Below are positions 2,981 through 61,605 of a stretch of DNA of 64,000 nucleotides, in pieces. Position 1 is the stretch's first letter; each line of letters starts with the position of its first letter. The notes beneath the pieces are model-generated. The model did no database searches, had not been told where the DNA came from, and saw only the letters and a program-made list of their open reading frames with translations. This stretch comes from Halomonas sp. MCCC 1A13316. Lineage in GTDB: Bacteria > Pseudomonadota > Gammaproteobacteria > Pseudomonadales > Halomonadaceae. The translations under genes and the position numbers were made by a program. The DNA lies in assembly GCF_014931605.1 (NCBI RefSeq), contig NZ_CP053382.1, positions 1-64,000 on the forward strand. The letters are read 5' to 3'.

Positions 2981-4105
2981 ATGCTGATCGACCGTCTCGC
3001 TTTTACCGGCCTGAGAAATCTCGGCATGCTCGATTTTACACCGAGCCCCGGTATAAACCTGATCGTGGGGCGCAATGGCAGCGGCAAGACCAGCCTGCTC
3101 GAGGGGCTTCACATCCTTGGCATGGGGCGCTCCTTCCGCACACGGCAGCTAAAACATGCCATCTCCCATGACGCCGAGGAAATGACGCTGTTTGCTCGCC
3201 TGGCCGGCGACCCTCCGCTGCCGGTCGGGGTTCGTCGTGCGCGCGATGTGGCGGAGATGGAAATGCGCATGAAGGGAGAGCGGATTTCGCGCTTGGCGCA
3301 GTTGATCGAAGCTCTTCCCTTGCAGCTGGTCAATCCCGATGCCTTCCGTCTTCTCGAGGGGGCTCCGGCCGGCCGAAGGGAGTTCCTCGACTGGGGGGTG
3401 TTTCACGTGAAACACGACTTCTACGATGCCTGGCGCCGCGTCAAGCGAGCGCTGAAGCATCGGAATGCGCTTCTCAGACATGGTAGAATGGATGCCAATA
3501 GCCTGGCTGCGTGGGAGCAGGAGCTGGCACTTTGGGGCGAACGGATCGATATCCTGAGACGCGAGTGGATGGTGAGCTTCGTTCCCGTATTCGAGGAGAC
3601 GCTCGGCCGCTTGATCGATTTGCCCGATTTGAGCCTGCGCTATTCTCGCGGCTGGGACAAGCAGCGCTCCTTGCGTGAGGTGCTTGAACAGGGCCGGACG
3701 ACGGACCAGCAGATGGGGTTTACCCAGAATGGCCCCCAGCGCGCCGACATGCGCATCCGGCTGGGGCGTCGCCCTGCCGTTGAGGTGCTGTCGCGAGGCC
3801 AACAAAAGCTGGTAGTCAGTGCGCTAAAACTGGCCCAGGGGCGACTGCTAGAGCAATCGACAGGGCGCAGCTGTCTCTATTTGGTAGACGATTTACCCGC
3901 AGAGCTGGATGCCGAGCATCGTCGTGTATTTTGCCGACTGCTGGAATCCATGCGCTGCCAGGCTTTCATCACTAGTGTCGAACACGATGCCCTCGTGGGA
4001 CCATGGCAATCCCACACGCCAATGACGATGTTTCACGTGAAACAAGCCTCGTCCGGAGCAGGGCAGCTAGTGCCTCAGGCACAGATAGACTTCACGACGG
4101 AGTAG
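2981..4105 (+). CDS. recF: DNA replication and repair protein RecF
   Basis: RecF, about 374 residues. This SMC-like ATPase, with RecO and RecR, loads RecA at gaps. ATG 2981 (MLIDRLAFTGLRNL) is chosen because it matches the family N-terminus. An in-frame GTG at 2954 would add nine residues without homology. Walker A GRNGSGKTS lies near residues 30-38, the ABC signature LSRGQQKL near 270 and Walker B CLYLVDDLPAELD near 300. Two perfect parS sites lie inside the reading frame (3399 and 4029), where they encode the phase-dependent strings FHVKH and FHVKQ. Three bases separate the stop codon from gyrB. Confidence 0.95.
   Translation: MLIDRLAFTGLRNLGMLDFTPSPGINLIVGRNGSGKTSLLEGLHILGMGRSFRTRQLKHAISHDAEEMTLFARLAGDPPLPVGVRRARDVAEMEMRMKGERISRLAQLIEALPLQLVNPDAFRLLEGAPAGRREFLDWGVFHVKHDFYDAWRRVKRALKHRNALLRHGRMDANSLAAWEQELALWGERIDILRREWMVSFVPVFEETLGRLIDLPDLSLRYSRGWDKQRSLREVLEQGRTTDQQMGFTQNGPQRADMRIRLGRRPAVEVLSRGQQKLVVSALKLAQGRLLEQSTGRSCLYLVDDLPAELDAEHRRVFCRLLESMRCQAFITSVEHDALVGPWQSHTPMTMFHVKQASSGAGQLVPQAQIDFTTE
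3399..3414. promoter_or_regulatory. parS: parS site (inside recF)
   Basis: TGTTTCACGTGAAACA, a perfect 16-base parS palindrome for ParB/Spo0J binding. It lies inside the recF coding sequence. Confidence 0.92.
4029..4044. promoter_or_regulatory. parS: parS site (3' end of recF)
   Basis: Perfect TGTTTCACGTGAAACA, in the extended C-terminal tail of RecF just before gyrB. The tail is longer than that of E. coli RecF, and the site may be what maintains it. Confidence 0.92.
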
Positions 4106-6529
<2,424 letters not shown>

Positions 6530-6538
6530 AGGACGCGG

Positions 6539-6554
6539 TGTTTCACGTGAAACA
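6539..6554. promoter_or_regulatory. parS: parS site (after gyrB)
   Basis: Perfect TGTTTCACGTGAAACA, nine bases after the gyrB stop codon and ahead of its terminator. Confidence 0.92.
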
Positions 6555-6589
6555 CCTTTTTGTCACGTAAGCTCTTGACCTATAAGAAA

Positions 6590-6614
6590 GCCGACCCATA
6601 GCGGGTCGGCTTTT
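6590..6614 (+). terminator. Rho-independent terminator of gyrB
   Basis: Stem GCCGACCC / GGGTCGGC with loop ATAGC, followed by TTTTCTT. The putative group II intron starts seven bases after the T-tract begins to break up. Confidence 0.9.
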
Positions 6615-7063
6615 CTTCATGTGCGCCAGGCATGGCGCGCAGCGCCTGACTGGCGCTGTTCCCGAGAGTGGTGTCTCGGGATGACTTGGGGGTGAAAGTC
6701 CCCCTGCACGCCCGGCAAGGGGAAGTGCTAGCCGACGGCAAGGGTGTCTCCCGCGAGGGGGAATCTGAAGGAAGCCTGAGGCAAAACGCTGGCCTGACGA
6801 ACAGGAAGCGGATACAAGGCGGCATGGCGGGGTGAGGTGTCAAGAGTCACTAAAGCCCAATACTTGCACGGAACGCCATGGCGTAAATCCGACAGGCATA
6901 AGCGGGAAGGTCGCGCGTCTTACCCTGGGAGGTCTGGTGGTCTGCCACGGTGCTACCGGCGTCGAGAGGCGACGGGATGGGCTATCAGACGTCAGCAGAG
7001 GCCATAGTAAGTGCCGATTCACCACGGCACCAAGGGCCGAACATGAGGAACCGCGAGTAGGCG

Positions 7064-7818
7064 ATGACGTCTCGAGGATCGATCATGAAGACCGAAGCTG
7101 GCGCTGATACCGCCACCCACCCAGAGGGGCAGGGGCGGAACCCCGAGCCCCGGCCGGTGGGCGTCGAGACGGTTCCGGCGTCGTCATCGTGGACGAAAGC
7201 GGAGCCCGACCCGCTCATGGAGGCCGCGGTAGAGAAGGCCAACATGGCGCGGGCTTACCGTAAGGTGGTCGCCAACAAAGGCGCACCGGGTGCCGACGGC
7301 ATGACGGTGGTCCCGTTGGCCGACCACCTGAAACAGTACTGGCCGACGCTGCGTGAGCGGTTGCTGGTCGGAGAGTGCCACCCCAGCCCGATCCGAGCCG
7401 TCGAGATCCCCAAGCCCAAGGGCGGGACGCGACAGCTCGGCATCCCCACGGTCACCGACCGGCTGATCCAGCAGGCGCTGCTGCAGGTGCTGACGCCGCT
7501 CTTCGATCCGGGTTTTTCCGAATCGAGCTACGGTTACCGCCCGAAGCGCAGCGCCCAGCAGGCCGTCTCGGCCATGAAGACCCATGTCACTGCCGGCCAC
7601 CGCTGGGTGGTCGTCCTCGACCTGGAAGCCTTCTTCGACCGAGTGAACCACGATCTGCTGATGGCGCGGGTCGCGCGCCGCGTTCGCGACAAGCGGGTGC
7701 TGCGCCTGATCCGCCGCTACCTGGAAGCCGGGATGTTCCAGCACGGCCTGACCACGCCGCGCCGGCAGGGTACGCCCCAAGGCGGACCGCTGAGTCCGCT
7801 GCTGGCCAGTATCCTGCT
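7064..7818 (+). pseudogene. ltrA: Group II intron maturase/reverse transcriptase, 5' part only
   Basis: About 250 residues of an intron-encoded protein. Visible RT blocks are EIPKPKGGTRQLGIPTVTDRLIQQAL (RT-1/2 region, split here as KPKGGTRQLGIPTV and DRLIQQAL), SSYGYRPKRSAQQAV, LDLEAFFDRVNHDLLM (first catalytic Asp) and GTPQGGPLSPLLASILLD. The frame then runs into antisense IS110 sequence at about 7818, before the YADD active-site motif, the thumb/X domain and any endonuclease domain. It therefore cannot be an active reverse transcriptase. The start could be ATG 7064 or ATG 7085. Confidence 0.85.
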
Positions 7819-8629
7819 TGATGCCCAGCAGGCGGTCGCGACCGCCGGTACTATGCTGTCTTGGTGTCAGGCCCAGGGAGGCGGCAAAATCGCGCCCGCG
7901 CTTGAAAGCCTGGGCATCGCCCAGAGCGCTGGCCAACGCACTGGCGGTGACGGTGAGTATGCCGACGCCACGCAGGGTCATCAGCCGCTTGGCGATGGGA
8001 TCGGTCTGGGCGTGGCACTCGATGCCTTCTGTCACCGTGACAATGCGCGCATCCAGGTGGCGCAAATCCTCGGCGAGGCCTGCCAACAAGACACGGAAGT
8101 CATCAGTCAGGCCGTTCTCGGCATCCTCCAGCCAGCGTGGCAAGGCTACTCGCAGCTGGCCGATGCCGGTGGGCGCCACCAGCCCGTACTCGCCGATCAG
8201 GCCACGAATCTGGTTGGCCTTGGCGGTACGCTGCTGAACCAGTTCACTGCGGATGCGATGCGCCGCCTGAACATCTTGCTGGGCGACCGACTTGACGGCG
8301 ACGAAGCGCATGTGGGGGCGGCCCATGGCCTCGCAGATCGCCTCGGCATCCACACGATCGTTCTTGTTGCTCTTGACGTAGGGCTTGACGAACTGGGCGG
8401 CGATCAGCTTGACGTGATAGCCGCGCGCCTGCAGCTCGCGGGCCCAGTGGTGGGCGGAGGCACACGCCTCCATACTGATCTCGGCCCCCATGGGGACGCG
8501 CTTGACGATGGCGTCCAGCCACTTGTCACGCTGGTACTTGCCGCGCCATTGGACCTGATCATGACGATCGACGCCGTGGACATGAAAGACGGATTTGGCA
8601 ATATCGACACCAACGCGTGAAATGTTCAT
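7819..8629 (-). pseudogene. IS110-family transposase, C-terminally truncated
   Basis: About 270 residues of an IS110-type (DEDD) transposase. The N-terminal RuvC-like domain is intact, with D9 (VGVDIAKS), E54 (EISMEACAS), and D91 and D94 (NDRVDAEAI). The C-terminal Transposase_20 domain starts (LMTLRGVGILTVTA; GRDFAASLGLTPRQHSTGGRD) but stops at LLGI, before the conserved serine region. The frame stays open as an antisense read-through of the intron maturase to 7184, giving a 481-codon chimera that is not a natural protein. The right end of the element is missing. Confidence 0.85.
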
Positions 8630-8710
8630 GGGATGCGCTCCTCAGCAGATAGCCTCACCCTCTCAGTGTGGCGCATCGGCGCCGGGGTAGGGTGGGGAGG
8701 ACTCATCCCA
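7819..8710 (-). mobile_element. IS110-family insertion sequence, 3'-truncated
   Basis: This covers the transposase fragment plus the roughly 80 bases of non-coding sequence ahead of its ATG. In IS110-group elements this left end encodes the bridge RNA. The outer boundary is not sharp: it lies somewhere between 8640 and 8720, before the intron domain VI hairpin. No terminal inverted repeats are seen, as usual for IS110 proper. Confidence 0.55.
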
Positions 8711-8720
8711 TTGGTGGTGT

Positions 8721-8757
8721 GGGAGGGCGCCGGGGGCAACCCCGGCCCCTACCCGAT
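8721..8757 (+). other. Group II intron domain VI-like hairpin and 3' splice end
   Basis: Stem CCGGGG / CCCCGG capped by GCAA, with a lower stem GGG (8721-8723) / CCC (8752-8754). A8751 is unpaired and is the predicted branch-point adenosine. The end is GAT, fitting the group II AY 3' terminus. It is separated from the 5' half of the intron by IS110 sequence. Confidence 0.6.
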
Positions 8758-8773
8758 TAGCGCCTGTCTTGTT

Positions 8774-9325
8774 CTATGGGTTTAGTAACCAATCGACGAA
8801 GGCAGCAAGATCGTCAAAAATTAATGCCTTACCGATACCTGTCCCCTTTGTCTCGGTCCTGCGTCCTTTTCCGGTGCGCACAAGAACTGTATGGCAACCC
8901 ATCGATTCCCCAGCCTGCAAATCGCGCAGACTGTCGCCCACCATCCAGCTTCCCTCCAAGTTAGGCAGCCGTAACACGTCGCGTATTTCAGCCAGAAGCC
9001 CGGGTAAAGGCTTGCGACAGGAACACCCTTCATCGGGTCCATGCGGGCAGTAGGCGATATGCGTGATTGCACCTCCCGCCTCGTTGACCCGCCTTTCGAG
9101 CTCGGTGTGCATCGATGCCAGGGTGGCTTCATCATAGTAGCCTCGCGCGATTCCGGATTGGTTGGTGGCGATGGCAACGGCCCAGCCCGCACGGGACAGG
9201 CGTGCCATGGCTTCGATGGCGGTAGGGTAGGGGATCCATTCGTCCAGCGACCGGATATAGTCGTCTGAGTCCAGGTTGATGACGCCATCCCTGTCGAGAA
9301 TAACGAGTCGGGTTGCCTCGGCCAT
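8774..9325 (-). CDS. gmhB: D-glycero-beta-D-manno-heptose-1,7-bisphosphate 7-phosphatase
   Basis: HAD-family phosphatase, 183 residues. It removes the 7-phosphate of heptose bisphosphate in the ADP-heptose route to the LPS inner core. HAD motif I is LDRDGVINLDSDDYI (nucleophile and acid Asp near residues 11-13). Motif II is in IATNQSGIARGYY, and motif III/IV in CRKPLPG and GDSLRDLQAG. The zinc loop CPHGPDEGCSC, specific to GmhB, is present. hldD and hldE of the same pathway are in this window. The gene lies downstream of glyS, separated by a terminator and two parS sites. Confidence 0.95.
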   Translation of the reverse strand: MAEATRLVILDRDGVINLDSDDYIRSLDEWIPYPTAIEAMARLSRAGWAVAIATNQSGIARGYYDEATLASMHTELERRVNEAGGAITHIAYCPHGPDEGCSCRKPLPGLLAEIRDVLRLPNLEGSWMVGDSLRDLQAGESMGCHTVLVRTGKGRRTETKGTGIGKALIFDDLAAFVDWLLNP

Positions 9326-9360
9326 TGACTCACCATGAACAGATTCGGAGATAGGAGAAG

Positions 9361-9376
9361 TGTTTCACGTGAAACA
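9361..9376. promoter_or_regulatory. parS: parS site (gmhB-glyS intergenic)
   Basis: Perfect TGTTTCACGTGAAACA, 35 bases upstream of the gmhB start on the other side of its probable promoter. Confidence 0.92.
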
Positions 9377-9411
9377 GGCGCTGCCAAGACGGGCTTCGCC
9401 AGGATGTGTCA

Positions 9412-9427
9412 TGTTTCACGTGAAACG
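9412..9427. promoter_or_regulatory. parS: parS site, one mismatch
   Basis: TGTTTCACGTGAAACG, 15 of 16 bases. It lies 51 bases from the previous site, so the two could load ParB together. Confidence 0.85.
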
Positions 9428-50958: not shown

Positions 50959-51504
50959 TCAGTCGAGCGCCTTGAACTCCTCCTCGTGCAGCCAGGCGGC
51001 ATGCTTGGGTGCCCGTTTGGTCTTCGACCACTCCTCGATCATGGCCGGCGCCACTGCCTTGAGCTGCTGCATCTGCTCCGGCGTGCCCTTCACGTAGGTC
51101 AGCTCCAGGCGATGGCCGTTGGGGTCGAAGAAGTAGATCGAGCCGATGATGCCGTGCTCGGTGGGTCCCACCACCTCCACGCCCTTGCGTTCGAGTTCCT
51201 CCTTCGCTTCAAGCAAGGCCGCCTCGTCGGCCACGCGGAAGGCGATGTGCTGGACCCACTCGGGCGTATTCGGGTCGCGCCCCATCTCCGGTGAGTTGGG
51301 CAGCTCGAAGAAGGCCAGGATGTTGCCGTTGCCGGCGTCCAAGAACAGGTGCATGTAGGGGTCGGGCGCCTTGGTCGAGGGCACGCGGTCCTCGGCGATG
51401 GCGACCAGGAACTCCATGTTGAGCTTGTCCTGGTACCACTCGACGGTTTCCTTGGCATCGCGGCAGCGATAGGCGACGTGGTGGATCTGCTGAATTTTGA
51501 TCAT
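50959..51504 (-). CDS. VOC family (glyoxalase/dioxygenase fold) protein
   Basis: 181 residues. A paired beta-alpha-beta fold with metal-site candidates H8/H9 (IQQIHHVAYRCRD), E67 (AFFELPN), H86 (VQHIAFRV) and E133 (NGHRLELTY). This is the layout of glyoxalase I-like enzymes and extradiol dioxygenases; the substrate is unknown. It is divergent from gshB, with a 36-bp palindrome between them. A glutathione-linked detoxification role would fit that context but is inference. Confidence 0.82.
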   Translation of the reverse strand: MIKIQQIHHVAYRCRDAKETVEWYQDKLNMEFLVAIAEDRVPSTKAPDPYMHLFLDAGNGNILAFFELPNSPEMGRDPNTPEWVQHIAFRVADEAALLEAKEELERKGVEVVGPTEHGIIGSIYFFDPNGHRLELTYVKGTPEQMQQLKAVAPAMIEEWSKTKRAPKHAAWLHEEEFKALD

Positions 51505-51560
51505 GACGGGGCTCGCGTTAGTGGGCTGGGAGCGCCAGGGACTTCTCAGGGCTTTTTCAG

Positions 51561-51596
51561 CCTCTATTTTAGTTTCATTTGAAACTAAAATAGAGG
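51561..51596. promoter_or_regulatory. Perfect 36-bp palindrome, putative operator
   Basis: Two 17-base arms (51561-51577 and 51580-51596) are perfect inverted repeats around TT. The core AGTTTCA-TT-TGAAACT recurs as AGTTTCA-GT-TGAAACT at 61089. On the bottom strand the arm holds TAAAAT, a good -10 for the VOC gene, so a bound dimer should block it. The size and symmetry suggest a MarR- or TetR-type repressor. The matching regulator is not in this window. Confidence 0.7.
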
Positions 51597-51689
51597 CGCT
51601 CGACGTACCCTGTCAAGCCGTCTTGGTGTTGCTTACGACCCTGCGTCATACTGCGCTCATTTCCCCGTGCCACGATGGAAACGGTGCCG

Positions 51690-52667
51690 ATGAGCCAACA
51701 GACGAGCGAACGACCCCTGCGGGTGGGTGTGGTGATGGACTCCATCGCCAACCTCACCTACAAGAAGGACACCACCCTGGCCATGCTGTGGGCGGCCCAG
51801 GAGCGTGGCTGGTCGCTGCACTACATGGAGCAGGAAGACCTGTTCCTGCGCGACGGACGCGCCCACGCCCGCATGCGCGACCTGACCGCCTTTCGCAACC
51901 CCGACGACTGGTATGCGCTGGGCGCACCGGAGCAGCGGTCGCTGGCCGACCTCGACGTGATCCTGATGCGCAAGGACCCGCCGGTCGATGCGCACTTTCT
52001 CAATGCCGTGCATTTGCTTGGCTTCGCCGAACGCGAGGGCGTCCTGGTGGTCAATCCCACGCGGGCGCTGCTGGAGTGCAACGAGAAGCTTTTCGCCCAG
52101 CAGTTCCCGCAGTGCTGCACGCCGACAGTGGTCTCCTGCAGCGAGGCGGTGCTGCGTGACTTTCATGCCGAGCACCGGGACGTGATCTTCAAGCCGCTGG
52201 ACGGCATGGGCGGCAGCGGCATTTTTCACGTTCAGCCAGAAGGTCGGAACCTGGGCGCCATCATCGAGACGCTGACCGAGCGCGGCCAGCGCCAGATCAT
52301 GGCCCAGCGCTACATTCCCGAGATCAAGGATGGCGATACCCGTATCCTGCTGGTGGAGGGAGAGCCGGTGCCTTTCGGCCTGGCGCGGGTGCCCATGGCC
52401 GGCGAGACCCGCGGCAACCTGGCCGCGGGCGGCACCGGCGTCAGCCGCGAGCTGACCGCCCGCGACCACTGGTTGATCGAGCAGGTCCAGCCGATGATCC
52501 GCGATAAGGGGCTGATGTTCGTCGGGCTCGACGTGATCGGCGATTACATCACCGAGATCAACGTGACCAGCCCCACCTGCGTGCGCGAGATCGATGATCA
52601 GCGCGGTACCGACATCGCCGGCCTGCTGATGGATGCCATCGAGCGGTGCCTGGCCCGGCGCACCTAG
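51690..52667 (+). CDS. gshB: Glutathione synthetase
   Basis: ATP-grasp enzyme, 325 residues (E. coli 316). It joins gamma-glutamylcysteine and glycine. VGVVMDSIANLTYKKDTTLAML is the family start, LMRKDPPVD and NPTRALLECNEKLF follow, then VIFKPLDGMGGSGIFHV (ATP lysine) near residue 165 and VGLDVIGDYITEINVTSPTC near 280. ATG 51690 or 51675 may be used. Head of the gshB-tonB-algH-ruvX order known from Pseudomonas. Confidence 0.96.
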   Translation: MSQQTSERPLRVGVVMDSIANLTYKKDTTLAMLWAAQERGWSLHYMEQEDLFLRDGRAHARMRDLTAFRNPDDWYALGAPEQRSLADLDVILMRKDPPVDAHFLNAVHLLGFAEREGVLVVNPTRALLECNEKLFAQQFPQCCTPTVVSCSEAVLRDFHAEHRDVIFKPLDGMGGSGIFHVQPEGRNLGAIIETLTERGQRQIMAQRYIPEIKDGDTRILLVEGEPVPFGLARVPMAGETRGNLAAGGTGVSRELTARDHWLIEQVQPMIRDKGLMFVGLDVIGDYITEINVTSPTCVREIDDQRGTDIAGLLMDAIERCLARRT

Positions 52668-52700
52668 GCATCGCGCAACCCAAGGAGGACGAGCCCGCCC

Positions 52701-53612
52701 ATGGTGGCCTCTGACCTGATCCACTATGCCCCGGTCACGCGGCCCTACCGCCGCTGGCTAGCGCTGTCGGCCGCGCTGCTGCTGCACCTGGCGCTGATCG
52801 GCGCTGTGGCGAGCTGGCAGTTCTCCCCGGCGCCGGCCGAGCGCACGAGCCTGGACGTGGTACTGGTGACCCGCCCGGCCGAGGCACCGGATGATGCCGA
52901 AGCCATTGCCGAGGCGGATCAGCAGGCGGCCGGCGAACAGGCCGAGGAGGCACCCGCCGAGCAGCGTGCAGCACCCCTGGACGAGCTGCCGGTGCTCGAG
53001 GCGCCGGAGAGCACCCTGGACCCGGCCGCTCCCGCCGAGGCCGAGCCGGCTGAACGTGCCGTCACCGAGCCGGAGCCTGTCCCTGTCGAAGAAGCGCCTA
53101 TCGAGGCCGAGCGGGACAGCGAGGCAACGCCGCCGTCCGAGCCGCGCGAAAGTACGCCTCCGGCGGCGTCATCTTCGCCGGCTGCGCCTTCTGCCTCGGG
53201 GCGCGACCTGCTGGCACAGGCCACCAGCAGCATCCGCCAGCAGGGGCTCGACACCAGCCTAGCCGGGCCGGATGACGGCCAGCCGCGCACAGCGGCCCAA
53301 CGAGCGGCCGAGGCGCGCTATATCGACGACTGGACCCGACGCGTCGAGGACTACGGCAACCGCGTCCATCCCGCTCCGAGCCACCTGCATGGCCAGCTGC
53401 GTATTCGCGTGGTGATCGGACGCGATGGTCAGCTTCGCCAGGCGGAGGTGGTACAATCCTCAGGACATACCGAACTCGATCAGGCGGCATTGGCAACCGT
53501 GAACGGTGCCGGGCCCTATCGGCCCTTCGATAGCACCATGGGGGGGCTGGACAGTCTCTCCATCACCCGCGTCTGGCGGTTCGGAGAAGGTAATCAATTT
53601 GGCGTGCGCTAG
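52701..53612 (+). CDS. TonB family energy transducer (TonB3-like)
   Basis: 303 residues. The N-terminal membrane anchor (about 19-40, LSAALLLHLALIGAVASWQF) carries the His typical of TonB proteins. A long linker (50-170) very rich in Ala, Glu and Pro spans the periplasm, and the C-terminal TonB domain (about 205-300) has LRIRVVIGRDGQLRQAEVVQSSGH. The position between gshB and algH equals Pseudomonas tonB3, linked there to twitching motility. ExbBD are not nearby. Confidence 0.87.
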   Translation: MVASDLIHYAPVTRPYRRWLALSAALLLHLALIGAVASWQFSPAPAERTSLDVVLVTRPAEAPDDAEAIAEADQQAAGEQAEEAPAEQRAAPLDELPVLEAPESTLDPAAPAEAEPAERAVTEPEPVPVEEAPIEAERDSEATPPSEPRESTPPAASSSPAAPSASGRDLLAQATSSIRQQGLDTSLAGPDDGQPRTAAQRAAEARYIDDWTRRVEDYGNRVHPAPSHLHGQLRIRVVIGRDGQLRQAEVVQSSGHTELDQAALATVNGAGPYRPFDSTMGGLDSLSITRVWRFGEGNQFGVR

Positions 53613-53640
53613 GGTCATTGGTTCGCCGCCCGGGAGTCCC

Positions 53641-54213
53641 ATGCAATCCGTGCAAAACCTAGGCTTGAGACATCATTTTCTGCTGGCGATGCCGCACCTG
53701 GAAGATCCCAACTTTGCCGGCAGCCTCAGCTATCTGTGTGACCACGACGAGAACGGCACCATGGGCGTGATCGTCAACCGACCGCTGGAAATCACCCTGG
53801 ATGCGTTGTTCGAGCAGCTCGAGCTCGACGGCGAGGAGAGCCCGCATCGCAGTGCGCCGGTCTACTACGGCGGCCCGACCCACAAGGATCGCGGCTTCAT
53901 CCTGCATCGCGGTTCCAGCGAGCCTTGGGATTCCAGCATCCAGGTGGACGACGACATTGCCTTGACCACCTCCATGGACATCCTGCTGGCGCTGGCCGCC
54001 GGGAACGGGCCGGAGGAGTTTCTGGTGTGCCTGGGCTGTGCCGGTTGGGAAGCGGGCCAGCTTGAACAGGAGCTCAAGGACAACGCCTGGCTCACCGTCG
54101 AGGCGCAGGGCGACATCCTGTTCAAGGTGCCACCGGAGCAGCGCCTCGGCGCCGCCGCCGGCATCCTCGGTATCGACCTCAATCTGATGTCGCGGGAAGC
54201 GGGCCATTCCTGA
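53641..54213 (+). CDS. algH: AlgH/YqgE family protein
   Basis: UPF0301 family, 190 residues from ATG 53641 with GGGAG upstream. HHFLLAMPHLEDPNFAGSLSYLCDH, MGVIVNRPLE and VYYGGPTHKDRGFILHR are conserved. A regulator of alginate in Pseudomonas by name; molecular activity is unknown. Its stop overlaps the ruvX ATG. Confidence 0.93.
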   Translation: MQSVQNLGLRHHFLLAMPHLEDPNFAGSLSYLCDHDENGTMGVIVNRPLEITLDALFEQLELDGEESPHRSAPVYYGGPTHKDRGFILHRGSSEPWDSSIQVDDDIALTTSMDILLALAAGNGPEEFLVCLGCAGWEAGQLEQELKDNAWLTVEAQGDILFKVPPEQRLGAAAGILGIDLNLMSREAGHS

Positions 54214-54671
54214 TGGCCGAAGCAGGAGCGCGCCTGATCCTGGCCTTCGACTTCGGCACCCGGCGCATCGGCGTGGCGGTGGGTAACGAGTTGCTCGCCA
54301 GCGCCCGCCAGCTAGCGCCCTTGCCGGCGCGCGACGGCATTCCCGATTGGAACGCGGTCGCGCGGTTGGTGGAGGAGTGGCAGCCGGACCTGTTCGTGGT
54401 GGGGCTGCCCCTCAACATGGATGGCAGCGAATCGGAGATGAGCGCGCGGGCACGCAAGTTCGGCAAGCGCCTCTACGGCCGCTACGGCAAGCCCTGCGAG
54501 ATGGCCGACGAGCGCGGCTCAACGCGCGAGGCCAAGGCCGTCGCCCGCGAGTCGGGGCTGCTGCGCAACCCGCGCAAGAGCTATCGCGACGATGGCGTCG
54601 ACGGCATCGCGGCGGTGCTGATCCTGGAGAGCTGGTTTGCCCGCCGCGAGGGCCTGCCGTCGCGAGGTTGA
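54213..54671 (+). CDS. ruvX: Holliday junction resolvase-like protein RuvX/YqgF
   Basis: RNase H-fold protein, 152 residues. LAFDFGTRRIGVAVGNE (catalytic Asp), VVGLPLNMDGSESEM, MADERGSTREA and DDGVDGIAAVLIL keep the acidic catalytic set. The family processes the 16S rRNA 5' end and resolves branched DNA. Overlaps the algH stop by one base. In Pseudomonas pyrR-pyrB follow; here pyrR is missing. Confidence 0.94.
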   Translation: MAEAGARLILAFDFGTRRIGVAVGNELLASARQLAPLPARDGIPDWNAVARLVEEWQPDLFVVGLPLNMDGSESEMSARARKFGKRLYGRYGKPCEMADERGSTREAKAVARESGLLRNPRKSYRDDGVDGIAAVLILESWFARREGLPSRG

Positions 54672-54725
54672 CGGCTGGCCTGGGGAAAACCCCGGTTGGG
54701 TCCTGGCTGTCAGAGAGTAGCGAAC

Positions 54726-55373
54726 TCAGGTCGTCAGCACCCGCTCCTCGGCATACTGCGCGGCAATATCGTTCACCGAGATGCAGGTGTACTTGATGAC
54801 AAAGAAGGCCAGGGTGGCGGGGCAGGTGAAGCTCTCCTCGAAGCGTTCCACCTCGGTGCCGCGTCCGCGGGTGACGCTGGCGCGGTAGTTATTGCCTGCC
54901 TTGGTCAGCCTGACCGTGGCCTGGCGGTCGACCTCTTGCTTCTCCAGCACCAGCTCGCGCTGCCTGGTCAGCAGCTCGTCAAGCATCTTGCCGCCTTCCA
55001 GCTCCTCGGGTGTAGCCCACACTTCCTGGTCACGCTTGCCGTACTGGAACAGCAGGATTGCCGGCATCACGGAGAAGATGGCGCCGGTCAGCAGCCAGGT
55101 CAGTTCGGCACCGGGGGGATGTAGCGCGAACACGGCGAAAATTTGTATCAAGAAGGCTGCCACCAGGATGCCCGCCAGCGGGCGCCACATGCGTGGGTTC
55201 ATCATGGGCTTGCCCAGGGTATGGCCCCACAGGCCGGCCGCTACCAGCGCACCCAGCACGACCGATGCCAGCCCCCAAAGAGGGCCGCCGCCCACCAGCA
55301 GGGCAATGACGCCGATCGCCACCAGGGCGCTGTAGAACACCGCCAGCAGTATGTACGCTCGTTCCAGGGTCAT
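54726..55373 (-). CDS. Membrane protein of unknown function
   Basis: 215 residues from ATG 55373 (AAGGAG nine bases upstream). Four hydrophobic segments (about 8-28, 34-52, 64-86, 92-108) form the N-terminal half. The C-terminal 110 residues are soluble and charged, with EELEGGKMLDELLTRQREL and RGRGTEVERFEESFTC. I do not recognise a family. It lies where pyrR would be in Pseudomonas but on the opposite strand, next to pyrB. Confidence 0.7.
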   Translation of the reverse strand: MTLERAYILLAVFYSALVAIGVIALLVGGGPLWGLASVVLGALVAAGLWGHTLGKPMMNPRMWRPLAGILVAAFLIQIFAVFALHPPGAELTWLLTGAIFSVMPAILLFQYGKRDQEVWATPEELEGGKMLDELLTRQRELVLEKQEVDRQATVRLTKAGNNYRASVTRGRGTEVERFEESFTCPATLAFFVIKYTCISVNDIAAQYAEERVLTT

Positions 55374-55552
55374 GCGTCGCATCTCCTTTCTACCGGTTGC
55401 CTGGGCGGCAACGCCATTGTTATTCGAGATCGTCGTTCGTCAGCTGGCTCTCTCGAGCCTTATCCTCCAGGGGGCAGCCAATGGCTGCCAGCACAGCTTC
55501 GCATATTCCACGATCGTCATCAGCATAGCGATGCCGAGCGTTGGCTGCATCG

Positions 55553-56581
55553 TTACAAGGCGGGGTCGTCCACGCCGACTCGCTCGGGCACGAACCAGCG
55601 CACCGGACGCAGGTCCTTCTCGATCAGCGCTTCCACCTGCAGCAGGGTGGCGAAGATCGCCATGCGCACCGGGATGCCGTTGTCGGTCTGGCGGAAGATC
55701 GCCAGGCGCGGATCGCCGTTGAGGTCCACGTCCAGGTCGTTGGCATCCGGGCGGCTGTCGCGCGGCAGCGGGTGCATGACGATGGTGTCGCGGCCGCAGC
55801 GCTTGTCCATGAAGGCGCGGTCGACGGTGAAGTCGCGCGACAGGCTGAAGCCCTCGCTCATCTCCGCGGTGAAGCGCTCCTTCTGGATGCGGGTGGTGTA
55901 GACCACGTCGACGTCGGCGTAGTCGTCGGCCAGGCTGGCGCGCTCCTCGACGCGGTGGCCGCGGGAGGCGACCAGATCGATCAGGTGGCTCGGCATCTCG
56001 AGCCCGGGCGGCGCCACCAGAGTGATGCGCATGGGGGCATAGAGCGACAGCAGCTTGATCAGAGAGTGCACCGTGCGGCCGTACTTGAGGTCGCCAGTCA
56101 GCAGCACGTGCGCGTCGGCGAGCTTCTTGCCCAGCCGGTTGAACTCCTTGTCGATGGTGTAGAAGTCGAGCAGCGCCTGGCTGGGGTGTTCGCCGGGGCC
56201 GTCGCCACCGTTGATCACCGGCACGTGGGTGGCGGCAGCGAACTCGGCCACCGAGCCCTGATCGGGGTGACGCATGACGATGGCGTCGCAGTAGCCGCTC
56301 ATCACCCGGCTGGTGTCGTAGAGCGACTCGCCCTTGGCCATCGAGGAGAAGGTGAAGCCGGTGGTGTCGCACACGCTGCCGCCCAGGCGACAGAAGGCTG
56401 CATGGAAGCTGACGCGGGTGCGGGTACTGGCCTCGAAGAACAGGTTGCCGAGCACGGCCCCCTCCAGCACCCGCGTGACCTGGCGACGTTGGGCGATGGG
56501 CTCCATGCGGGCGGCGACGCGCATCAGGTGGTCGACGCGATCGCGGGACAGGGAATCGACGGAGAGCAGGTGGGGACTCAT
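55553..56581 (-). CDS. pyrB: Aspartate carbamoyltransferase
   Basis: 342 residues from ATG 56581. It condenses carbamoyl phosphate and aspartate in pyrimidine synthesis. FFEASTRTRVSFHAAFCRLGG holds the carbamoyl phosphate STRTR site, HPSQALLDFYTI the aspartate side, GDLKYGRTVHSL the domain hinge and VMHPLPRD a late active-site loop. It is longer than E. coli PyrB (311), and no pyrI or pyrC neighbour is visible. A start at 56644 would add 21 residues without homology. Confidence 0.94.
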   Translation of the reverse strand: MSPHLLSVDSLSRDRVDHLMRVAARMEPIAQRRQVTRVLEGAVLGNLFFEASTRTRVSFHAAFCRLGGSVCDTTGFTFSSMAKGESLYDTSRVMSGYCDAIVMRHPDQGSVAEFAAATHVPVINGGDGPGEHPSQALLDFYTIDKEFNRLGKKLADAHVLLTGDLKYGRTVHSLIKLLSLYAPMRITLVAPPGLEMPSHLIDLVASRGHRVEERASLADDYADVDVVYTTRIQKERFTAEMSEGFSLSRDFTVDRAFMDKRCGRDTIVMHPLPRDSRPDANDLDVDLNGDPRLAIFRQTDNGIPVRMAIFATLLQVEALIEKDLRPVRWFVPERVGVDDPAL

Positions 56582-56663
56582 CGAAGGCCTCGAAGTGGCA
56601 GCGAAGGATGGCGGTAGTGTAACTCTCCCGGGCTGCAGCTTCACGGACCCGAATCGGCTTGCG

Positions 56664-57341
56664 TCAGTGACCGACCAGTTCGGCCAGCCTGCGTGCGTGA
56701 GCCTTCACTTCGCGTATCGCCCGTTCGCTATCGAGATCGTCCATCGCCACCACGCCCACGCAGGCCTCGACGCCGGGACGAAACTGCGGCGTGGCGACGG
56801 GGCTGGCCACGCCCACGGCGCCGCGCTGTAGCTGGCCACGGGTCAGGCTGTAGCCATCGGCACGTGCCTGGCGCACCTCCTCGCTGTCGTCGTCGCGCGG
56901 GGCGCGTCCAGCCAGTATAGCGATACCCGCCGCCCCGCGGCTCAGCGGATGGCGGCTGCCGATCCGGTAGCTCACGCGTAGCAATCCCTCCTCCGGTTCC
57001 GCCACCAGCAGCACCACGCACTCTTCGCCCTGGGCTACCGAGACGAAGGCGGTGGCTCGGGTCGCCTTGGCCAGCGCCTGCAAGAGGGGCTGGGCCACGG
57101 CGCGTAGCTGCGGCTCGAAGCGCGAGGCGAGCAGCGAGATGCCGGCACCCAGCCGCAGCGAGCCCTCGCCGGAGCGTGCCACCAGACCGTGCTGCTCCAG
57201 AGTGGTGACGATGCGATAGGCGATGGCACGGTGCACGTCCAGTCGCTCGGCGAGCTCGGCGACGCTGATGCCGTCGGCGTGCTCGGCGATGAGTTCCAGC
57301 GCGTGCAGGCCGCGATCCAGAGTTTGCAGGGTGGTGGCCAT
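56664..57341 (-). CDS. IclR family transcriptional regulator
   Basis: 225 residues from ATG 57341. The N-terminal winged helix (about 1-65) has LQTLDRGLHALELIAEHADG and VAELAERLDVHRAIAYRIVTTLE. The C-terminal IclR effector domain includes RIGSRHPLSRGAAGIAILAG. It is divergent from the P450 fusion gene with 192 bases between starts, so it most likely controls that gene in response to the substrate. The frame remains open far upstream antisense to the P450, which is not coding. Confidence 0.88.
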   Translation of the reverse strand: MATTLQTLDRGLHALELIAEHADGISVAELAERLDVHRAIAYRIVTTLEQHGLVARSGEGSLRLGAGISLLASRFEPQLRAVAQPLLQALAKATRATAFVSVAQGEECVVLLVAEPEEGLLRVSYRIGSRHPLSRGAAGIAILAGRAPRDDDSEEVRQARADGYSLTRGQLQRGAVGVASPVATPQFRPGVEACVGVVAMDDLDSERAIREVKAHARRLAELVGH

Positions 57342-57437
57342 TCGAACGTGAGCCCTCGAGTCGTTGGGTGGCGGAGCAAGGTAGCGCAGTCGCTCGGGAT
57401 TGACGTCTTCGGCGAAACTGCCTATGTTCTGCCATGT

Positions 57438-57448
57438 GTTCGCTGAAC
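57438..57448. promoter_or_regulatory. Candidate IclR operator
   Basis: GTTC-GCT-GAAC, a short perfect palindrome midway between the IclR gene and the P450 gene. Short GTTC/GAAC-type palindromes are seen at IclR-type promoters. Single weak site. Confidence 0.3.
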
Positions 57449-57533
57449 GATACCAATTGTGCGATAAAAGTAAAACAAGGCGCCGCCACGCATGACAGCC
57501 ACGATTCCGGATGACAGCCCCGCGGGAGGTTCC

Positions 57534-59879
57534 ATGACAAATGCCATTGATCGGACCCAGGCCGGCGCGGGCGGCTGCCCCTTCCACGCCGCTCAAGAGC
57601 CACCCACGGCACCCAACGGCTGCCCCGTGTCGCCCCGGGCGGCGGCCTTCGACCCCTTCGACCGCCCCTATCAGCTCGACCCCGCCGAAGCGCTGCGCTG
57701 GTCGCGGGAGCAGGAGCCGGTGTTCTACAGCCCCAAGCTCGGCTACTGGGTCGTGAGCCGCTACGACGACATCAAGGCGATCTTTCGCGACAACCTCACC
57801 TTCTCGCCGTCGATCGCGCTGGAGAAGATCACGCCGGCAAGCCGAGAGGCCCAGACGGTGCTTCAGCGCTACGACTACGGCATGAACCGCACCCTGGTGA
57901 ACGAGGACGAACCGGCCCACATGGCGCGCCGCCGCGAGCTGCTCGAAGCGTTCACGCCAGAGGCGCTCGAGGCCCACGCGCCGATGGTGCGCCGCCTGGT
58001 ACGCGAGAAACTCGACGCCATCGTCGACCGTGGCCGTGCCGACCTGGTCGCCGAGATGTTCTGGGAGGTGCCGCTCACCGTGGCGCTGCATTTCCTCGGC
58101 GTGCCCGAGGAGGACATGGATCAGCTGCGCCGCTTTTCCGTCGCCCACACGCTCAATACCTGGGGGCGGCCCTCGCCGGAGCAGCAGGTCGAGGTCGCCG
58201 AGGGCGTCGGCAGGTTCTGGCAGTACTCGGGCCAAGTGCTCAAGAAGATGCAGGACCAGCCCAGCGGCCACGGCTGGATGTACGACATGATCGAGAAGAA
58301 CCGGCAGAAGCCGGAGGTGGTCACCGACAACTACCTGCATTCGATGATGATGGCGATCATCGTCGCCGCCCACGAGACTACCGCGCTGGCCACCGCCAAC
58401 GCCTTTCGTCAGTTGCTCTCGCGCCCCGCAGTGTGGGCCGAGCTTTGTGCCAGCCCGGCGCTGATCCCCGCCGCGGCCGAGGAGTGCCTGCGCCACTCCG
58501 GTTCGGTAGTGGCCTGGCGGCGCATCGCCACCCGCGATGTCGAGGTGGGCGGCGTGAGCATTCCCGAGGGCGGCAAGATCCTGATGGTCACGGCCTCGGC
58601 CAACCACGACCCGGCCCACTTCGAGAACCCCGACGAGCTCGACATCTACCGCGACAATGCCGTCGATCACCTCACCTTCGGCTACGGCAGCCACCAGTGC
58701 ATGGGCAAGAACCTGGGACGCATGGAGATGCGCATCTTCCTCGAGGAGTTCACCCGCCGCCTACCGCATCTCGAACTCGAGGAACAGGAATTCACCTTCC
58801 TGCCCAACACCTCCTTCCGTGGCCCCGAGGCGCTGTGGGTGCGCTGGGATCCGGCGCAAAATCCCGAACGCCGCGAACCGGCAGTGCGCAGCGCCCAGCG
58901 CGATTTTCCCGTCGGGGCGCCGTCGCGCCAGGACATCGCCCGGGAAATGGTCGTCGCCAAGATGCAAGAAGCGGCACAGGGTGTGCTCCAGGTCGCCCTG
59001 GAAGACCCTCATGGACGCCGTGTGCCGGAGTGGAGCCCCGGCTCCCACATCGAGCTGATCGTGGGGGAGTACGTGCGCAAGTACTCGCTGTGCGGCGAGA
59101 TGGAAGATCCCTACTGGTTGCAGATCGCCGTGCTGCGCGAGCCCCAGGGGCGAGGCGGCTCGGCCTGGATCCACGAGCACCTCACGCCGGGCATGACCCT
59201 GCGCCTGCGCGGGCCCAAGAATCACTTTCGCCTCGATGAATCTGCCGAGCACTACGTGTTGATTGCCGGCGGCATCGGCATTACGCCGATCATCTCCATG
59301 GCCGACCGCTTGAAGCGGCTGGGCAAGTCGTATGAGCTGCACTACGCCGGCCGCTCTCGCTCCAGCATGGCCTTCATCGAGCGGCTCGATCGCGATCACG
59401 GCGAGGCGCTGCACCTCTACCGCAAGGACGCGGGCAAACGGCTCGACCTCGCCGGATTGCTTGCCGAGCCTGGCGAGGACACGCTGCTCTACGCCTGCGG
59501 CCCCGAGCGGCTGCTCGCGGCGCTGCAGGCCGGCACCAGCCATTGGCCGGAGGGCAGCTTGCATGTGGAGCACTTCTCGGCGGAGGGCGCACTGCTGGAC
59601 CCGGCCAATGAACACGCCTTCGAGGTCGAGCTTGCCGACTCCGAGCTGATCGTCGAGGTGGCGCCGGACCGCACCCTGCTGCAGGCACTGCGCGCCGCCG
59701 GCGTCGACGTGCCCAGCGACTGCGAGGAGGGCCTTTGCGGCTCCTGCCAGGTCGATGTCGTGGAGGGGGAAATCGACCACCGCGACAAGGTGCTTACCAC
59801 CGCCGAGCGTGCCGGCCAGGACCGCCTGATGAGTTGCTGTTCGAGGGCGAAGGGAAAAAAGCTCAAGCTTGCCCTCTGA
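57534..59879 (+). CDS. Self-sufficient cytochrome P450 fused to FMN reductase and ferredoxin (CYP116B type)
   Basis: 781 residues from ATG 57534, which has GGGAGG five bases upstream; ATG 57492 is less likely. The P450 domain (1-450) shows I-helix AAHETT near 279, ExxR EECLR near 316 and heme ligand C389 in FGYGSHQCMGKN. A phthalate-dioxygenase-reductase-type module follows: FMN motif RKYSLCG near 515 and NADH motif AGGIGITPIIS near 577. A C-terminal 2Fe-2S ferredoxin has C-x4-C-x2-C (CEEGLCGSC, about 728-736) and a last Cys near 767. This is the class VII layout of P450RhF. Substrate unknown, likely an imported aromatic or aliphatic compound. Confidence 0.95.
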   Translation: MTNAIDRTQAGAGGCPFHAAQEPPTAPNGCPVSPRAAAFDPFDRPYQLDPAEALRWSREQEPVFYSPKLGYWVVSRYDDIKAIFRDNLTFSPSIALEKITPASREAQTVLQRYDYGMNRTLVNEDEPAHMARRRELLEAFTPEALEAHAPMVRRLVREKLDAIVDRGRADLVAEMFWEVPLTVALHFLGVPEEDMDQLRRFSVAHTLNTWGRPSPEQQVEVAEGVGRFWQYSGQVLKKMQDQPSGHGWMYDMIEKNRQKPEVVTDNYLHSMMMAIIVAAHETTALATANAFRQLLSRPAVWAELCASPALIPAAAEECLRHSGSVVAWRRIATRDVEVGGVSIPEGGKILMVTASANHDPAHFENPDELDIYRDNAVDHLTFGYGSHQCMGKNLGRMEMRIFLEEFTRRLPHLELEEQEFTFLPNTSFRGPEALWVRWDPAQNPERREPAVRSAQRDFPVGAPSRQDIAREMVVAKMQEAAQGVLQVALEDPHGRRVPEWSPGSHIELIVGEYVRKYSLCGEMEDPYWLQIAVLREPQGRGGSAWIHEHLTPGMTLRLRGPKNHFRLDESAEHYVLIAGGIGITPIISMADRLKRLGKSYELHYAGRSRSSMAFIERLDRDHGEALHLYRKDAGKRLDLAGLLAEPGEDTLLYACGPERLLAALQAGTSHWPEGSLHVEHFSAEGALLDPANEHAFEVELADSELIVEVAPDRTLLQALRAAGVDVPSDCEEGLCGSCQVDVVEGEIDHRDKVLTTAERAGQDRLMSCCSRAKGKKLKLAL

Positions 59880-59959
59880 CCCTGGCGTTTACTTTGCACC
59901 ATGGCGATAACCCAAGTACGCCAACCCTGACAAACAAACGGGACTGACGAGGAACGACA

Positions 59960-61015
59960 ATGAAAAGACTCGCGACACTGACCGCATTGACCGCGCTCTC
60001 CCTGGGTGCCTTCCAGGGGGCCGCTGCCACCGAGCTGACGGTGAGCACCTGGGCCGGCCCCAACCACGGCGTCAATACCATCGTCTGGCCGACCTGGGGA
60101 AAGTGGGTCGAAGAGGCCACCGAGGGTCGCGTCAGCGTCAACGTGGTCCACGACATGGGCCCGCCGGGTTCGCAGATGGAGCTGATCGCCGACGGGGTGG
60201 CCGACGTCACCTGGCTGTTCCACGGCCTGATGCCGGGACGCTTCGAACTGACCAAGCTGCCGGAATTGCCCACCTTCGAGGACTTCTCCTCCGAGGCCGC
60301 GTCGGTGGCCTACTGGCGCACCCATAACGAATACTTCGCCGAGGCCGGCGAGCATCGCGGCGTCGAGGTGATCGGCGTCGGCGTGCATGGCCCGGGCTCG
60401 CTGTTCCTGAACGAATCGATCGACAGCCTCGACGATCTCGATGGCAAGCGCGTGCGCATCGGTGGCGGCGTGATGGGAGATATTTCCCAAGCGCTGGCGC
60501 TCACCGGTGTGGCGTTGCCGCCGGCCAGTACCTACGAAGCAGCGACCCAGGGCGTCATCGACGGCGCCATGCTCACCCTGGAAGGCCTCAAGAGCTTCCG
60601 CCTGGCCGAGGTGCTGCCCTACACGGTGCAGATGCCGGGCGGCTTCTATCGCGGCAGTTTCTCTCTTGTGATCAACCCCGACACCTGGGCCTCGCTCTCC
60701 GAGGAGGACCGCGCGGCGATCGAGGAGGTTTCAGGTGAGCGCCTCTCGCGGCTGTTCGGCTACATGATGGACGTGGTCGACGTACGCGGCATCGAATTTG
60801 CCGAAGAGCAGGGCAATACCTTCATCGAACTGCCCGCCGAGGAGATCGAACGCTTCCAGCAGATGGTCGACGACCTGCCGGGGGTCTGGATGGAAGCGGC
60901 CGGCGCCAGGGGTGTCGATGGCGAGGCCGCCCACGCCTACTTCTACGAACAGCTCGACGCCGCCGAGGGTGAGGAGGGGTTGTCGCCCGACGAGGTGATC
61001 GATCCCGAGGCGTAA
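59960..61015 (+). CDS. TRAP-type substrate-binding protein without permease partners
   Basis: DctP-family binding protein, 351 residues, with signal peptide (cleavage near residue 23, after GAAA). ELTVSTWAGPNHGVNTIVWP begins the mature part, FLNESIDSLDDLDGKRVRIGG holds the carboxylate-binding arginine region, and GVIDGAMLTLEGLKSF follows. The end is long and acidic. No dctQ or dctM lies nearby. It follows the P450 gene by 80 bases in the same direction (GAGGAA before the ATG), suggesting it delivers the P450 pathway substrate or a related acid. Confidence 0.9.
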   Translation: MKRLATLTALTALSLGAFQGAAATELTVSTWAGPNHGVNTIVWPTWGKWVEEATEGRVSVNVVHDMGPPGSQMELIADGVADVTWLFHGLMPGRFELTKLPELPTFEDFSSEAASVAYWRTHNEYFAEAGEHRGVEVIGVGVHGPGSLFLNESIDSLDDLDGKRVRIGGGVMGDISQALALTGVALPPASTYEAATQGVIDGAMLTLEGLKSFRLAEVLPYTVQMPGGFYRGSFSLVINPDTWASLSEEDRAAIEEVSGERLSRLFGYMMDVVDVRGIEFAEEQGNTFIELPAEEIERFQQMVDDLPGVWMEAAGARGVDGEAAHAYFYEQLDAAEGEEGLSPDEVIDPEA

Positions 61016-61033
61016 ACCGCGCCCTTTTTCCCC

Positions 61034-61070
61034 ACGCATGCGAGCACGGCCCCGGCCGTGCTCGCTGCGT
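61034..61070 (+). terminator. Strong hairpin after the orphan binding protein
   Basis: GCGAGCACGGC / GCCGTGCTCGC with loop CCCG, extended by ACGCA / TGCGT around one bulged base. No T-tract follows, so it is either a weak terminator or an RNA-stabilising end. Confidence 0.5.
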
Positions 61071-61088
61071 TATGGCAAGAGTAATTTA

Positions 61089-61104
61089 AGTTTCAGTTGA
61101 AACT
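61089..61104. promoter_or_regulatory. Putative operator, same core as 51561
   Basis: AGTTTCA-GT-TGAAACT, a perfect palindrome with a two-base centre, directly upstream of a TTGACC hexamer (61108-61113) and 76 bases before the DUF6455 gene. The core is identical to that in the VOC/gshB promoter. Confidence 0.65.
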
Positions 61105-61179
61105 ATTTTGACCTCCGTCAATGCTGCCCAGCGATAGGAGAACGATACTGCGGAAAACGTAACGGGAAGGAGAGGCAGC

Positions 61180-61605
61180 ATGAACCAGGCACCCAGGAAC
61201 TCATGGTGGAACCGTCTCTGCGAAGGCAGCTATCGCGCCTCCACACGGCGGATGGTCCGCGAGATCGAGGCGGAATCGCCGCAGGTCTACAGCGAGATGC
61301 TCAAGGATCTGGAGACGCCGCTGGAACCCACCTTCGAGCGTGAGATGTCACGCCATCTCGACCGCGGCGGCTATCGCGCCTTCGTGCCGGCCGAAACCCT
61401 GATGCCGGCCATGCTTCAGCGCTTCGGTCTCGACCAGGAGAGCGTTACCGAGCATGTCAGCTACCCCAGCCTGCGCGGCAACTGTAACGCCTGCCCGGTG
61501 GCCGGTCATTGCTGGGGTGCCATGCGTCGGGATGCCGGAGTCGACGAGTGTCGCGCCTTCTGTCCCAATGCCTTGGCCTTCGAGCGGTTGGCCGAGACGG
61601 CCTGA
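61180..61605 (+). CDS. DUF6455 family protein with cysteine motif
   Basis: 141 residues, AAGGAG upstream of the ATG. The C-terminal third has a cysteine set C102, C105, C111, C124, C128 (NCNACPVAGHC and ECRAFCPNA) followed by a conserved FERL. This pattern is that of DUF6455 as I recall it, and it looks like a zinc or redox/iron-sulfur site. There is no signal peptide, so the protein should be cytoplasmic. Function unknown. Its promoter palindrome matches the VOC/gshB site, pointing to a shared stress regulator. Confidence 0.75.
   Translation: MNQAPRNSWWNRLCEGSYRASTRRMVREIEAESPQVYSEMLKDLETPLEPTFEREMSRHLDRGGYRAFVPAETLMPAMLQRFGLDQESVTEHVSYPSLRGNCNACPVAGHCWGAMRRDAGVDECRAFCPNALAFERLAETA

Follow-up and report, generated by a model that had tools for sequence, protein, structure and literature searches.

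The first 64,000 nucleotides of contig NZ_CP053382.1 of Halomonas sp. MCCC 1A13316, hereafter the window, carry two exact copies of a 16-bp operator. Operator A (AGTTTCATTTGAAACT, 51571-51586) lies in the promoter of a gene for a VOC/glyoxalase-fold protein, and operator B (AGTTTCAGTTGAAACT, 61089-61104) upstream of a gene for a DUF6455-like cysteine protein; neither is assigned a strand. From sequence comparisons, we consider it very probable that both operators are read by a MarR-family, HmgS-like regulator of homogentisate catabolism, encoded at genome positions 81755-82264, outside the window and 20 kb beyond operator B. A preliminary description of this DNA had reported two sites with identical arms, and these are present as described. 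The exact 16-mer occurs in the whole genome (4,490,931 bases) only as operators A and B, and one-mismatch copies are absent from it. At two mismatches, the genome adds five parS-like sites, a site at 78490 (site C), and the positions 780063 and 2861826.

The marR gene closes a predicted TRAP transporter operon, and its product scores above the cut-offs for both PF12802 (57.0 bits) and PF01047 (47.5 bits), which places it in the MarR family. It is the orthologue of a MarR gene that, in the relative G029, stands divergent from hmgA with the operator in between. A MarR gene with the site in its own promoter had been suggested as something to look for, and marR has a related site in its operon promoter: site C (AGTTGTAATTGAAACT, 78490), a degenerate copy with two mismatches. 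Relatives have related sites at the corresponding position, the GAAACT half being present in 19 of the 20 listed. Leftward from site C, on one strand and with gaps of less than 100 bp, lie genes for an MBL-fold protein, a FAD hydroxylase (NF006002, 808 bits) and a DUF2783 protein, followed by hmgA (TIGR01015, 686.5 bits), fahA and maiA (TIGR01262, 303 bits); both hmgA and maiA exceed the NCBIfam cut-offs. Linkage of marR to hmgA with a shared promoter operator was found in the genus, in the class and in alphaproteobacterial loci, and in the present genome it runs through the MBL-led gene run. Judging from this arrangement, the homogentisate genes of this genome are probably also under the operator, via site C.

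We infer the following circuit. MarR would bind three promoters here: that of VOC, at operator A on the predicted start site; that of the DUF6455-like gene, at operator B abutting an FNR-type box; and site C, the putative divergent promoter of the TRAP-marR operon and of an MBL-FAD hydroxylase-DUF2783-hmgA-fahA-maiA operon. In the absence of aromatic substrate, MarR would repress these promoters, and a pathway intermediate, probably homogentisate or a precursor, would release it.

The distribution of the operator was surveyed in 90 genomes of the genus, with a site defined as a match with at most one mismatch and placed against gene positions. Such a site is present in 54 genomes, and there are 78 distinct sites overall; the backward pattern, used as a control, gave 5 forward matches in the same genomes. 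Seventy-two sites could be assigned: 29 to DUF6455 genes (site within 320 bp), 20 to hmgA, 17 to VOC and 6 to MBL/TRAP-marR, the other 6 lying elsewhere. In this placement, one DUF6455 match was taken per genome and low-scoring or DctM-adjacent paralogues were excluded, as was a truncated VOC gene (G025), which was examined separately; one site of G109 and two of G110 were placed from loci. The MBL/TRAP class was set by distance from hmgA, and five of its six members were confirmed by a locus with the MBL gene beside the site, G096 being the exception. A strong MarR orthologue (E value of 1.1e-48 or better) is encoded in 60 of the 90 genomes and in 47 of the 52 with assigned sites; in the other five (G012, G031, G068, G087 and G102), the contig stops before the expected place of marR. 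None of the 25 genomes that lack both hmgA and a strong marR carries a site, six of these genomes being only 72-88% complete. The preliminary description had named promoter placement and conservation in relatives as the checks on its regulon idea; both were run, the sites sit in promoters and are conserved, and the idea survives.

Among the unassigned sites, one (G070) has a parS-like core, and another, in G106, is a one-mismatch site that precedes an MFS transporter gene. That gene is similar to a Bcr/CflA-type MFS gene (TIGR00710, 306 bits) of the present genome, which has a three-mismatch site (GATTTCAAATGAAACC, genome position 70361, L041:10361) about 85 bp upstream. The Bcr/CflA-type transporter is a possible further target.

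Gene identities in loci, within the genus and beyond it, rest on tblastn with window or neighbour proteins. The order hmgA-site-marR or MBL-site-TRAP-marR recurs in Halomonas, Billgrantia, Litchfieldella, Onishia, Marinobacter and others, and 44 of the 58 gammaproteobacterial marR loci (L117-L174) hold a site under a looser rule. In a class-wide draw, a MarR match was found in 30 of 369 genomes. Alphaproteobacteria (Bosea and others) encode MarR proteins 33-41% identical to the G033 query, and an AGTT-palindrome of the operator kind lies close to marR in 9 of their 22 loci; in seven alphaproteobacterial loci, the site stands between hmgA and a divergent marR whose product is 34-41% identical to that query. 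In the gammaproteobacterial, alphaproteobacterial and class-draw loci, respectively, 17 of 58, 9 of 22 and 10 of 29 have a site upstream of marR at a distance of no more than about 700 bp, compared with 0.15, 0.10 and 0.05 expected from a shuffle that moved dinucleotide blocks, a rough control; one of the sites counted (L281) lies inside hpd. In an Anderseniella metagenome-assembled genome (MAG), also alphaproteobacterial, an exact AGTTTCATTTGAAACT adjoins both a second MarR gene and TRAP genes that run divergently (L183:7353-7475).

Could the sites instead be variants of parS, bound by ParB? A search of the window at up to two mismatches returned seven places against a shuffle mean of 0.05, and five of these are parS-like sites at 3399-9427, which differ from the operator by two outer bases. 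Against this resemblance, the CG centre of parS was seen, by eye, in none of the 72 assigned sites, and the assigned sites stand at promoters of orthologous genes and track the presence of marR and hmgA. A parS identity is thus barely credible.

The VOC protein (181 aa, 50959-51504, reverse strand; PF00903, 67.5 bits) is likely a direct target of operator A. Its predicted promoter (51587-51616, reverse strand) has a -35 element TTGACA (51611-51616, reversed), an 18-bp spacer and a -10 element TATTTT (51587-51592, reversed), and operator A lies just downstream of this -10, around the predicted start site. A TAAAAT within the arm of the surrounding palindrome had been pointed out as -10-like; it is present, although the opposite strand offers a better promoter match, directed towards VOC. 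Operator A is the core of an inverted repeat (51560-51597), described earlier as a perfect palindrome of 36 bp. The repeat is real, although it spans 38 bp, with 18-base arms (51560-51577 and 51580-51597) around a TT centre that is not self-complementary. The outer arms are kept in G110 and altered in G030, G010, G005 and G006; the 16-bp core is conserved. VOC is present in 18 of the 90 genus genomes, one copy (G025) being truncated at a contig end, and all 18 have the operator at the VOC promoter, 17 with at most one mismatch and G025 as GGTTTCAAATGAAACC. At the VOC promoter, GTCAAG is found in all six VOC genomes aligned and remains in three of nine VOC-less ones (G065, G009 and G028).

Relatives of VOC at greater distance point to the same pathway. 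The class draw yielded eight, 64-72% identical, of which six sit with pathway genes. The gene order is hpd-VOC-fahA in G374, hpd-VOC-fahA-maiA in G276, hpd-VOC in G127 and hpd-fah-VOC-maiA in G253; in G365 and G461, hpd comes first, then VOC, then maiA. G374 has a pair of operator-like sites between its hpd and marR genes. In G259 (L304), VOC with a two-mismatch site is followed by a FAD hydroxylase that shares 51% identity with its counterpart facing site C in the present genome.

Operator A is also within the intergenic region shared with gshB, the glutathione synthase gene (51675-52667, forward strand; NF003573, 419.5 bits, above cut-off), and gshB was part of the regulon as first proposed. 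We find that the site tracks VOC. The comparisons suggest that gshB is probably a bystander of operator A: the site is present in every one of the 18 VOC genomes and absent from 39 of the 40 VOC-less gshB upstream regions examined, and a conserved promoter of its own precedes gshB. The predicted gshB core promoter, TTGGTG-N18-CATACT (51623-51652, forward strand), lies outside the operator, 36 bp past it, and in 15 aligned upstream regions (6 with VOC, 9 without) CATACT is kept in all and CTTGGTG in 14. Overall, gshB is present in 88 of the 90 genomes, and in 70 of them VOC is missing. The sole VOC-less region with a trace of the operator is that of G028, whose site is decayed; neither marR nor hmgA was found in this genome. 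G065 (L197 1311-1438) amounts to a natural deletion: VOC is cut to a C-terminal stub, the operator is lost and gshB is intact. It could nevertheless be argued that gshB is a true co-target, the operator tying the supply of glutathione to MaiA, the maleylacetoacetate isomerase that depends on it. This would fit the shared intergenic position in 18 genomes and the presence of maiA among the genes facing site C, and the isomerase HmgC is described as glutathione dependent in the excerpted text of PMC8449657. Given the VOC-less regions, the G065 deletion and the separate gshB promoter, and since only the 17 VOC sites among the 78 precede gshB (positions compared by eye), we regard co-targeting as unlikely.

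The preliminary description is borne out in part, in that the two sites are conserved promoter elements and would mark a small regulon, but it suggested a response to electrophile or metal stress, which would suit the glyoxalase fold, the cysteine protein and the glutathione gene found close to them. A reactive quinone arises when homogentisate is oxidised, and with such a compound in the pathway a detoxification role for VOC or the DUF6455-like protein is possible inside a catabolic regulon. As an account of the regulon itself, the stress proposal is very improbable: the sites recur at genes of a single aromatic pathway, homogentisate (tyrosine/hydroxyphenylacetate) catabolism, and at genes adjoining it, and none of the 25 genomes lacking hmgA and strong marR carries one.

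The gene downstream of operator B (61180-61605, forward strand) encodes a protein of 141 aa that is only a remote relative of DUF6455, scoring 16.6 bits with PF20056 against a gathering cut-off of 23.7. Cysteines C102, C105, C111, C124 and C128 are invariant in 15 aligned DUF6455-like sequences, this one included. Its promoter is composite. An FNR/ANR-type box (TTGACCTCCGTCAA, 61108-61121, no strand assigned), the only such box in the window, begins 3 bp after operator B, and a predicted -10 element GATACT (61144-61149, forward strand) follows 22 bp after the box. Among 18 operator-bearing DUF6455 promoters including this one, the box is exactly 3 bp after the operator in 15, and in 15 GATACT follows the box position at a distance of exactly 22 bp. 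More broadly, TTGA-N6-TCAA is present in 28 of 36 distinct DUF6455 upstream regions; a stricter FNR-like box has 8 matches in 454 kb, in stretches that overlap and with some of the 8 at DUF6455 itself, and 1 in the window. In 16 operator-less paralogues or distant relatives, the box is kept in 10 and lost in 6.

Class II FNR/ANR-dependent promoters carry a TTGAY-N4-RTCAA box about 41.5 bp before the start, and a 22-bp spacing from box to -10 is that of a class II FNR promoter. The box found here lies at -41.5 relative to a start site that is only predicted, and the DUF6455 promoter resembles this class in both box and position; it differs in the MarR-type operator held 3 bp upstream at fixed spacing. 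The genome encodes two FNR-type proteins (near 201565 and 928055), with scores of 248.0 and 286.8 against the NF008365 cut-off of 228. Since the centres of operator B and the box are 18 bp apart, MarR-type and FNR-type proteins should compete or cooperate at this promoter, and the layout suggests a joint oxygen/aromatic gate on the cysteine protein. It is plausible, if short of probable, that the protein would be made only under a combination of scarce oxygen and available aromatic intermediates, the state in which the oxygen-dependent ring cleavage by HmgA stalls. On this reading, the DUF6455-like product would serve stalled aromatic catabolism in a role not so far recognised, possibly by binding a metal or an Fe-S cluster.

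Several observations weigh against a MarR-centred regulon. Thirteen of the 60 genomes with strong marR lack any assigned site within one mismatch; in G009, G019, G065 and G089, which are among the thirteen, a degenerate site precedes DUF6455. By the looser rule, 14 of the 58 gammaproteobacterial loci are siteless; the six of these that were re-examined all hold a three-mismatch form, AGTTGTNNNTGAAACT. In the present genome, site C has only one good half-site and no site directly precedes hmgA. Operator B, at about -60 and thus upstream of the start predicted for DUF6455, does not occupy the classical position of a repressor. In G253, G365 and G461, which have VOC and hpd near a MarR gene, the operator-like sites are weak matches, fall within hpd or were not found, and no pathway genes are in view near VOC of G249 or near the weaker relatives in G217 and G333 (43-45%). 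The MarR tree is poorly resolved, with one paralogue within the group on a very long branch. Finally, an IclR gene is found near marR in 30 of the 58 gammaproteobacterial loci, so that the operators might be read by this protein and not by MarR. That gene was not seen in two Marinobacter loci, in the Ectothiorhodospiraceae locus L159 or in the 22 alphaproteobacterial loci, and in many of these the sites stay with marR; its product scores best as BhcR-like, at 344.2 just below the model cut-off of 350. An IclR reader is accordingly improbable, and MarR remains the better candidate.

Between the two operators lies a further set of genes with a possible link to the pathway. A self-sufficient P450 (57492-59879, forward strand; PF00067, PF00111) combines P450, reductase and C-terminal 2Fe2S modules over 795 aa, the p450 and Fer2 domains scoring above their cut-offs and NAD_binding_1 at its cut-off. 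We take it to be CYP116B-like, going by the description excerpted from PMC8449657. Divergent from it, in an OhpR-like arrangement, is an IclR-type regulator gene (56664-57344, reverse strand; PF09339, PF01614), and downstream is a gene for a TRAP solute-binding protein, DctP (59960-61015, forward strand; PF03480), 61% identical to the DctP of the marR operon. The P450 fusion is likely a feeder to homogentisate. A P450 65% identical to it is encoded inside an hmgA-site-marR cluster in the Marinobacter MAG L153, where the order is hmgA, site, marR, P450 and TRAP genes. In the window search, no operator of this kind was found within two mismatches before the P450, IclR or TRAP genes.

At the other end of the window, the five parS-like sites have the sequence TGTTTCACGTGAAACA (one with a final G) and lie in a region whose open reading frames (ORFs) we take to be dnaN, recF, gyrB and glyS, which together suggest a replication origin area. 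Between gyrB and glyS, at 7064-8629, a reverse-transcriptase ORF (PF00078) and an IS110-type transposase ORF (PF01548, PF02371) overlap on opposite strands and look like nested or remnant mobile elements.

For homogentisate catabolism in halophilic bacteria, these comparisons name a candidate regulator, a candidate operator and a set of candidate targets, and they would assign two uncharacterised proteins, VOC and the DUF6455-like protein, to a defined pathway. The compact DUF6455 promoter, on which oxygen and substrate signals may converge, is open to direct test. As far as the literature searched shows, the wider targets, the explicit Halomonas operator and the composite DUF6455 promoter are new; in that literature, the term DUF6455 appears in a single paper, as one row of a table.

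The gene set between the operators recalls ohpR-ohpT-ohpA of Cupriavidus, which turns 2-hydroxyphenylacetate into homogentisate according to the excerpt of PMC8449657; the same excerpt places self-sufficient CYP116B P450 genes near hmgA in some bacteria. An IclR regulator, a substrate-binding protein gene and a self-sufficient CYP116B P450 are common to both, whereas the binding protein here is a TRAP DctP encoded after the P450, and the likeness to OhpA is one of description. In Pseudomonas putida, the homogentisate operon is repressed by HmgR with homogentisate as the anti-repressor, as stated in the excerpted PMC5343134; HmgR has a like function in homogentisate control but is an IclR protein, in contrast to the MarR protein proposed here. 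The closest parallel is HmgS, for which the excerpt of PMC5343134 gives a MarR-family regulator predicted for hmgAB in Alteromonadales. The likeness lies in a local MarR-family regulator of homogentisate genes, and the Halomonas regulator and HmgS, compared by published description, may be of the same family. Relative to the HmgS regulon as excerpted, the hosts here are Halomonas/Billgrantia, Marinobacter and alphaproteobacteria, the targets add VOC, DUF6455, the TRAP transporter, MBL and the FAD hydroxylase, and the operator is explicit.

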